From Gemmatimonadota bacterium (GTDB lineage Bacteria; Gemmatimonadota; Gemmatimonadetes; Gemmatimonadales; GWC2-71-9), in assembly GCA_003169895.1 (NCBI GenBank), contig PNAE01000007.1, positions 906,407 through 970,406 on the forward strand: a DNA stretch of 64,000 nt. The letters run 5' to 3'. Of the stretch, positions 13,698 to 50,107 are shown in pieces. The notes under the pieces are model-generated. The model made no database searches. It was not told the DNA's origin and saw only the letters and a list, made by a program, of their open reading frames with translations. The position numbers and the translations under genes are program-made. Each line of letters opens with the position of its first letter. Position 1 is the stretch's first letter.

Positions 13698-13736
13698 GCC
13701 TGCGCCGGAGGCCGTCTCGTGGCCTCCGGCGCAGGC
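13698..13736. terminator. strong 16-bp hairpin between the leader genes and integrase
   Basis: GCCTGCGCCGGAGGCC and its exact complement are separated by 7 nt. No T-tract follows on either strand, so it is either an unusual terminator or a transcript-stabilising structure separating the first two genes from the integrase. Confidence 0.6.
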
Positions 13737-46586: not shown

Positions 46587-48533
<1,947 letters not shown>

Positions 48534-48626
48534 GACGAGGAAGCTGCGGCTGGCTGGGACGATGGGAAAGGGGGGGGTGCGAACCGATGCGTTGTTGCCA
48601 CAGTTGCGCCGCAACCGCGGGCGGGC

Positions 48627-48998
48627 GTGGTATTGGCAAGGCCCTTGCTAGTTCTCCCGGCACCCTGGGCTGGAGGCCCTCTGTCCGTTTCGACCACGCA
48701 GCCCCATATCCGGGTGCTGCAGGCGCCCGAAAATCTCGGCCTTGTCACCCGCGACGCGTTTCGTCAGCAGGCCAACAGCCTCCTCGACGAAATGGGCGTC
48801 GGGCGGGGACAGCTCGTCGTGGACATGGCGGCCATGAAAGAGATCGACTCCTCGGGCCTGAGCGCCCTCGTGATGGTCCACCGTCACGCCGCCGAACGGC
48901 GCCAGCAGGTGATGCTCCGCAACGTCGGCCCCGAGATCGAATTCCTCCTTGTCCTTACCAAGCTCGATGATCTCTTTCTCTTCGCGTCCGACTCATAG
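48627..48998 (+). CDS. STAS-domain protein (anti-sigma factor antagonist type)
   Basis: 123 residues from a GTG that is my best guess; a CTG with GGAGG in front (about 48677) is an alternative. The core is a STAS fold: [20 protein letters not shown] near 80 carries the phosphorylatable Ser of SpoIIAA-type antagonists (DSSG), then [19 protein letters not shown]. It probably takes part in partner switching with a serine kinase. No kinase or sigma gene adjoins. Confidence 0.75.
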
Positions 48999-49022: not shown

Positions 49023-49177
49023 GGCCGGCGGAGGCGCGGGCGGGCAGGTCATTACGGCCACTGCGCTTCGCAGGCGCGGCCGCATCAGGTCTTGCGCCCC
49101 CGGTCTGATCACGAAGTGGCGGCCGCTGGCTCAGCGACGCGGCCTCCACGACCCGCCCGCCCGCGCCTCCGCCGGCC
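49023..49177. repeat. structured inverted element, unit 1
   Basis: Perfect 23-bp arms (49023-49045 and 49155-49177) enclose a core that contains two 5-bp/3-nt hairpins, CTGCG-CTT-CGCAG (49061-49073) and CGCTG-GCT-CAGCG (around 49124-49136), and ATCAG...CTGAT between them. The core recurs inverted in unit 2 with different closing arms. No gene was seen in the 48999-49393 gap. Confidence 0.7.
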
Positions 49178-49187
49178 AGCGTGCGCT

Positions 49188-49317
49188 GTGGGAAGAGGTG
49201 TCCGAAGGGCCGCCTCGCTGAGCCAGCGGCCGCCGCACGGCAAGCCAACCATGTTCGCAAGACGTTCTGCGGCCGCGCCTGCGAAGCGCAGCGGCCCGTA
49301 GCGACACCTCTTCCCAC
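49188..49317. repeat. structured inverted element, unit 2 (opposite orientation)
   Basis: Perfect 15-bp arms GTGGGAAGAGGTGTC (49188-49202) and its complement (49303-49317) enclose the inverted copy of the unit 1 core: 49215-49234 is the exact complement of 49118-49137, and 49268-49291 of 49061-49084, with an equal 33-nt spacer. The arms share no sequence with those of unit 1. Confidence 0.7.
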
Positions 49318-49393: not shown

Positions 49394-50107
49394 ATGACCT
49401 CAATCCAGGCGCCCATCGTCGATGCCCGTGGACTCGAGCGGCGGTTCGGGCACGTGGTGGCCTTGCGATCGGTCGACCTGACCGTGCGTTCCGGCGAGGT
49501 CGTGTTGCTCGCGGGCCCCAACGGCGCCGGGAAATCGACGTTGCTGCGTTGCATCGCGGGACTCACCCGGCCGACGCGTGGCACCGTGCGAATCCAGGAT
49601 CAGCAGCTGCGGCTTGACCCCGCCGCCCGCTCGGCGGTCGGTTTCTTGTCGCATCAGAACCTCTTGTATGACGACCTCACTGCGCGGGAGAACCTGCGTT
49701 TCGCGGCGCGGCTCCATGGCCTCGACGCCGTGGAGCGACGGGTGATGGATGCGCTCGACGCTGCGGGACTGACGCAACGCGCCGATACGCGCGTCGGGGT
49801 GTTGTCCCATGGCATGCGCCAGCGGCTGTCGATCGCGCGGGCCACGCTGCATGCCCCGGCGGTCCTGCTGCTCGACGAGCCGTTTACCGGCCTCGATGCC
49901 ATGTCGGCCGAGCTGCTGCGCACCGGCATCGCGGACGACGTCCAGCGCGGTCGCGCGGTCATGTGCGTGACACACCAGCCCGCCGAGATCTGGCAGCTTG
50001 CCACGCGGGTCGTCGTGCTCGACCGCGGTGTCGTGAAAGCGGACATGCCGCGGCCGCCGGCGCTCGAGGATTTTCTCGCCCGCTTCCGCCAGTTGCTCGC
50101 AGCGTGA
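49394..50107 (+). CDS. ccmA: heme exporter ATP-binding protein CcmA
   Basis: 237 residues. Walker A GPNGAGKS near 41, signature LSHGMRQRLS near 143, Walker B VLLLDEPFTGLD near 157, and the His of CVTHQPAEI near 195. Its identity as CcmA follows from the ccmB, ccmC and ccmD genes directly behind it. In System I the CcmAB(CD) complex releases holo-CcmE for cytochrome c assembly. Its stop overlaps the ccmB GTG. Confidence 0.9.
   Translation: MTSIQAPIVDARGLERRFGHVVALRSVDLTVRSGEVVLLAGPNGAGKSTLLRCIAGLTRPTRGTVRIQDQQLRLDPAARSAVGFLSHQNLLYDDLTARENLRFAARLHGLDAVERRVMDALDAAGLTQRADTRVGVLSHGMRQRLSIARATLHAPAVLLLDEPFTGLDAMSAELLRTGIADDVQRGRAVMCVTHQPAEIWQLATRVVVLDRGVVKADMPRPPALEDFLARFRQLLAA

Follow-up and report, generated by a model that had tools for sequence, protein, structure and literature searches.

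What kind of element fills the gap between a STAS-domain gene and a CcmA-like ABC ATPase gene in a Gemmatimonadota genome, where the original prediction, made from a stretch of 64,000 nucleotides (the window), had placed two inverted structured units with a common core and different closing stems?

Two hairpin units between the STAS and ccmA genes

The gap contains a head-to-head pair of hairpin units. The neighbours that had been named agree with the domain matches, the left one being a STAS-domain protein (48522-48998, forward strand; PF01740, E 2.7e-11) and the right one a CcmA-like ABC transporter ATPase (49397-50107, forward strand; PF00005, E 1.8e-34). Unit 1 (49023-49177, reverse strand) is a complete hairpin that scored 105 bits (E 2e-17) in a cmsearch of its own genome, and unit 2 (49188-49317, forward strand), likewise complete, has the highest cmsearch score in the genome (134.6 bits, E 2.4e-23). 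A spacer of 10 nt (49178-49187) separates the heads of the two units. The fold z-scores are -8.0 for unit 1 and -7.2 for unit 2, and range from -6.1 to -8.0 when both strands of the two units are folded as RNA and as DNA; none of 200 shuffles was as stable.

The perfect outer arms of 23 bp in unit 1 and 15 bp in unit 2 are exactly as predicted. In unit 1, the pairing extends to 28 nt (49023-49050 with 49150-49177), made up of 27 Watson-Crick pairs and one G.T pair, the first 23 being perfect; in unit 2, the 5' arm at 49188-49202 pairs with the 3' arm at 49303-49317. Comparison of the units also confirmed the inverted exact core blocks: the 24-nt block of unit 1 (49061-49084) is identical in inverted orientation to 49268-49291 in unit 2, and its 20-nt block (49118-49137) to 49215-49234, with 33 nt between the blocks in both units. 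The two core patterns occur in the window only at this locus, with none expected from shuffling. The adjacent units diverge in arms and spacer, as had been noted. The description of the arms as unrelated does not hold throughout, since the arm of unit 2, GTGGGAAGAGGTGTC, recognisably resembles that of another copy, GTGGGAACGAGTCTC, so that some of the arms, at least, are homologues that have diverged. Two core mini-stems of 5 bp with 3-nt loops are present here as described but, by inspection, are not kept in other genera, and they look like by-products of stem C (see below).

The locus shows no sigma-70-like promoter and no terminator pattern, and an intrinsic terminator could be ruled out because there is no T-run. 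Elsewhere in the window, at 13698-13736, there is a separate perfect palindrome of 17 bp with a 5-nt loop that is unrelated to the family.

A layered hairpin with a free outer stem

The anatomy was read from aligned units (alignments A1 and A3) and follows the order outer stem, 3x3 GNA:GNA internal loop, stem B, 2x2 loop, stem C and variable apex. The outer stem is 12-30 bp long and free in sequence. In 17 of the 23 aligned units, both sides of the internal loop read GNA; in unit 2, these are GAA at 49204-49206 on the 5' side and GTA at 49298-49300 on the 3' side. Stem B is GGGCCGC:GCGGCCC, with covarying versions that include GGGCGGC, GCGCGGC and GCGGGGC, among others. It is formed in unit 2 by 49207-49213 (5' side, GGGCCGC) and 49291-49297 (3' side, GCGGCCC), both with covarying pairs in A1 and A3, and in unit 1, on the reverse strand, by 49139-49144 (5' side) and 49056-49061 (3' side). 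Stem C contains the tandem G.A in unit 2, where CGCTGAGC on the 5' side (49216-49223) pairs with GCGAAGCG on the 3' side (49281-49288). At the two inner positions of stem C, 15 of the 23 units have a tandem GA:GA and seven a Watson-Crick TC:GA. The apex contains an extra stem, GCGGCCGC:GCGGCCGC, in the genome that contains the window (G000), and is shorter in other genera. In one member of a pair (L065:1366-1479), stem C lacks the greater part of its 3' half, yet a long, nearly perfect outer stem is kept.

Covariation and strand preference

In both the core and the outer stems, covariation clearly exceeds that of the shuffled and the slid controls, as the different arm sequences with kept pairing had led the original prediction to suppose. 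In A1, 86% of the cells are paired compared with 69.5% after shuffling, and the covariation score is 0.423 compared with 0.136 (0/500); in A3, the values are 77% and 59%, and 0.458 and 0.162 (0/500), all of these numbers being generous since the shuffle control ignores relatedness. The covariation in A1 was lost when the partner columns were slid by 1-3 positions. In A3, 13 of the 14 outer-stem pairs and 9 of the 14 core pairs show changes on both sides. The mean score of a 5' arm against its own 3' arm is 15.0, compared with 6.2 against the arms of other units (95th percentile 8). The sister copies L008 and L009, the flanks of which align at 87%, show three double changes, two single changes and no broken pair among 14 arm pairs, and their identity is 0.71 in the arms compared with 0.85 in the core.

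Mismatches in the orientation of the unit are biased, with 36 G.T to 10 A.C, or 27 to 10 (p about 0.01) after shared events were merged; these counts come from strict alignment scoring, and units within one genome are not independent. If only pairing mattered, or if correction were symmetric, G.T and A.C should be equally frequent. The excess of G.T, together with GNA and G.A loops that are found on one strand, therefore indicates that selection probably acts on one strand in its single-stranded form. The bias is equally expected from selection at the RNA level and on single-stranded DNA.

Copies in the genome and in related genera

A search with the core in its own and related genomes, as had been proposed, identified further copies, and the core is not confined to this locus. 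Many of them were located by a DNA search in G000 (3.42 Mb, 13 contigs, 98% complete), for which the statistics derive from searches and fetched loci. A covariance model built from 16 of these copies (R1) gave 20 cmsearch rows, the last of which is unit 2 read on its opposite strand, so that the genome has about 19 units at 15 loci. Units of the family are roughly 110-200 bases long. With about 19 occurrences of the core in the genome and others in further genera, the prediction of a repeat family in which the core is conserved and the outer stem compensates is supported. The flanks are not common to the copies, small sub-groups excepted. Three of the loci (L006, L008 and L009, taken as the match with 300 bp on each side) have about 150-200 bp of extra flank in common, forming a larger composite repeat (GGCTCGCTCTGGTCCGGCGTGCGTCCCTC...), and at L003:1410-1515, 36 bp of a unit are repeated exactly, in direct orientation, just outside that unit, possibly as a partial duplication.

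The nine congeners contained no DNA match and only insignificant rows of the model (E 0.04-0.8). Their STAS-ccmA gap, where readable, is about 40-160 bp long and lacks the element; with an identity of about 66-79%, they are too diverged for a clean insertion junction. With a second model (R2), units were identified in seven further genera of this taxonomic family, where the copies are diverged and their presence is patchy. The phylum-wide counts are lower bounds, since no more than the eight best candidates of each genome were scored. G048 has 11 R2 matches, G013 contains eight units at four loci, arranged as four head-to-head pairs, plus one fragment, and G055, G060, G263, G356 and G011 contain one to three units each, the single match in G011 being the weakest of all and possibly due to chance. 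Four loci in G048 (L171, L172, L174 and L183) are palindromes of the outer-arm motif only, without the core.

A strict core pattern matched only the groundwater MAG JACQHC01 among 84,980 species genomes, a collection that possibly does not include G000. No match to the family was found in collections of phages, plasmids and viral contigs, no Rfam covariance model matched at the gathering threshold or at E<=1, and no description of this hairpin-repeat family was found in the literature searched.

The units are mostly located in gaps between predicted genes, and overlaps with open reading frames look mainly like uncertain start extensions. Their orientation relative to the host genes is random, with eight sense, nine antisense and the remainder between convergent or divergent genes. 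Since the gene calls are mechanical, single contexts may be wrong; the locus in the window, for example, came out as divergent since the calls had overlooked the STAS gene. The genes sampled next to units are of ordinary kinds (typA/bipA-like, aspartyl/lysyl/asparaginyl-type tRNA synthetase, enolase, dnaJ and an FAD/NAD-linked oxidoreductase), and no transposases were identified among them. The eight pairs, found at four loci in G000 and at each of the four complete loci in G013, are all head-to-head, although some are duplicates of each other and the eight do not represent as many independent events.

Search for a mobilising enzyme and conserved ends

No Y1 transposase or RAYT (PF01797) was identified in G000 (98% complete) or G048 (67% complete), although the positive controls matched, and neither Y2 (PF04986) nor reverse transcriptase (PF00078) was found in G000. 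A Y1 gene is present in G013. The possibility that this gene is flanked by units was rejected, as the weak model matches there correspond to an 11-bp tandem repeat and other sequence; the repeat array lies beside the gene at L087:2014-2106 and is the source of the false match. A search that covered part of the transposase families identified no autonomous partner element. Some units contain GNAG/CGTC strings, which upon inspection of the alignments are located beside no conserved short hairpin of 5-13 bp. Shared termini were seen only in G048, G060 and G263, the copies in G000 having no common ends, and no constant target-site duplication was seen by eye at the ends of the units.

Alternative explanations and the preferred reading

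That the units are a structured noncoding RNA family, as trans-acting small RNAs or parts of untranslated regions with a stem kept by selection at the RNA level, would agree with the strong covariation, the bias of G.T over A.C and the purine-rich internal loops conserved on one strand. This explanation is nevertheless unlikely, as the same bias would arise from selection on single-stranded DNA, Rfam contains no match and the head-to-head pairs leave little room for promoters. The random orientation to the neighbouring genes argues against an ordinary cis-acting mRNA element, and the lack of a recurring promoter or flank argues against an independent RNA gene; the locus has neither a sigma-70-like promoter nor a terminator, and flanks are shared only within small sub-groups. 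An artefact such as an assembly fold-back, to which the palindromic form alone could be ascribed, is next to impossible given that dispersed, diverged copies are spread over 15 loci and several contigs and recur in several independent assemblies, and that the neighbouring units differ in arms and spacer.

The arms could instead be the target, if the core inserts into the centre of pre-existing palindromes, and would then be specific to each site and yet pair. Such insertion would account for the differences in arms between unrelated sites, and REP dimers within palindromes are known from other bacteria (PMC3733652). The arm motif AAGCTCTGCRCAAGTCGC has 41 occurrences in G048, compared with 8 for the reversed control, and three loci of this genome (L171, L172 and L174) have arms back to back without the core; in G055, the inner arms are common and the outer arms differ. 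The arms-only sites may, however, be full units with a deleted centre. Chance or common palindromes were rejected as a source, there being few in the window, where such palindromes are at chance level (3 compared with 1, 5 and 2 in shuffles). Insertion into palindromes is retained as a rival, albeit a quite improbable one, because it explains neither the joint changes in the homologous arms of L008 and L009 after their duplication nor the covariation of stems B and C. The correction of quasi-palindromes by template switching is established, and a neutral upkeep of palindromes by template switching or intrastrand correction during replication, with no selected function, would be in line with arms that are often perfect and, in L008 and L009, less alike than the core. 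We consider it very improbable, since it predicts no strand bias in the mismatches and accounts neither for the dispersal nor for the unpaired GNA and G.A loops that are conserved across genera.

The reading that we prefer, with a probability of about 0.58, is that the locus is a head-to-head pair of non-autonomous mobile hairpins of the REPIN/BIME kind, from an undescribed family in one taxonomic family of the Gemmatimonadota. It is based on the species-specific placement, the patchy multicopy presence, the orientation-free intergenic siting and the head-to-head pairing. Among the functions originally offered, a non-autonomous mobile element fits best and a noncoding RNA, as an independent gene, is disfavoured. 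The transposition of the units is a step that we infer from their dispersal. Neither a transposition event nor a strain-level empty site was seen, and about 19 copies is a low number for REP-type elements, both of which count against the reading. The unit would fold when single-stranded, on the lagging strand or as a transposition intermediate, and a trans-acting enzyme would recognise the geometry of the GNA:GNA loop, stem B and the tandem-G.A stem C and copy the unit, alone or paired, into intergenic DNA. The outer stem would serve as a clamp, the length and pairing of which matter while its sequence drifts, and the mobilising enzyme may have been lost from G000.

Since RAYT, Y2 and reverse transcriptase are absent from G000, we do not claim membership in the REP/REPIN-RAYT system; the family most likely represents a novel variant among the REP/REPIN-like mobile repeats. 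It is unlikely that it represents a class of bacterial mobile DNA recognised by its layered-hairpin shape rather than by the sequence of its ends, with a drifting outer stem and spread by an enzyme that belongs to neither the Y1/Y2 HUH nor the reverse-transcriptase families. The reading is least secure on whether the element acts as RNA or as DNA, and on the enzyme involved. If the mobile-hairpin reading is right, a hairpin-repeat family with selection on shape over sequence would be added in a little-studied phylum, and G000, being without RAYT, would offer a clean system for learning what else spreads REP-like repeats. With covariance models of the family, annotators could detect elements that ordinary sequence searches miss outside the species.

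Comparison with known hairpin repeats

ERIC/IRU and bacterial MITE-like repeats are families of conserved sequence. Similar to the units described here, they are intergenic, 100-170 bp long and small mobile sequences that resemble MITEs (PMC2759123), but the arms of our family are free in sequence and the structure is kept instead. The repetitive and double hairpin elements of mitochondria also recurrently invade among close taxa (PMC2800124); in those of sponges, the stems are conserved and the loops vary, whereas here the outer stem varies and the internal loops are conserved.

The REP dimers embedded in palindromes of other bacteria and the transposase-less CGTC repeats are likewise hairpin repeats inside longer palindromes, and the latter also lack a dedicated transposase (PMC3733652). 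The CGTC repeats have stems of 8-9 bp and loops of 4-5 nt, and no such short hairpin is conserved in the family.

REPINs are mobile inverted doublets that form a hairpin in the single strand, with compensatory changes (PMC3116915). They and BIMEs share with the family the dispersed intergenic location, the inverted pairing, the long single-strand hairpin and the compensatory stem changes (PMC3116915), and in these too head-to-head dimers are favoured (PMC3733652). REPINs differ in having hundreds of copies compared with 19, and from them the family differs in having neither a recognised conserved tag nor, in G000, a RAYT. A single unit of the family is already a long two-sided hairpin, and the arrangement is reversed relative to REPINs in that the middle is conserved and the outer end is variable.
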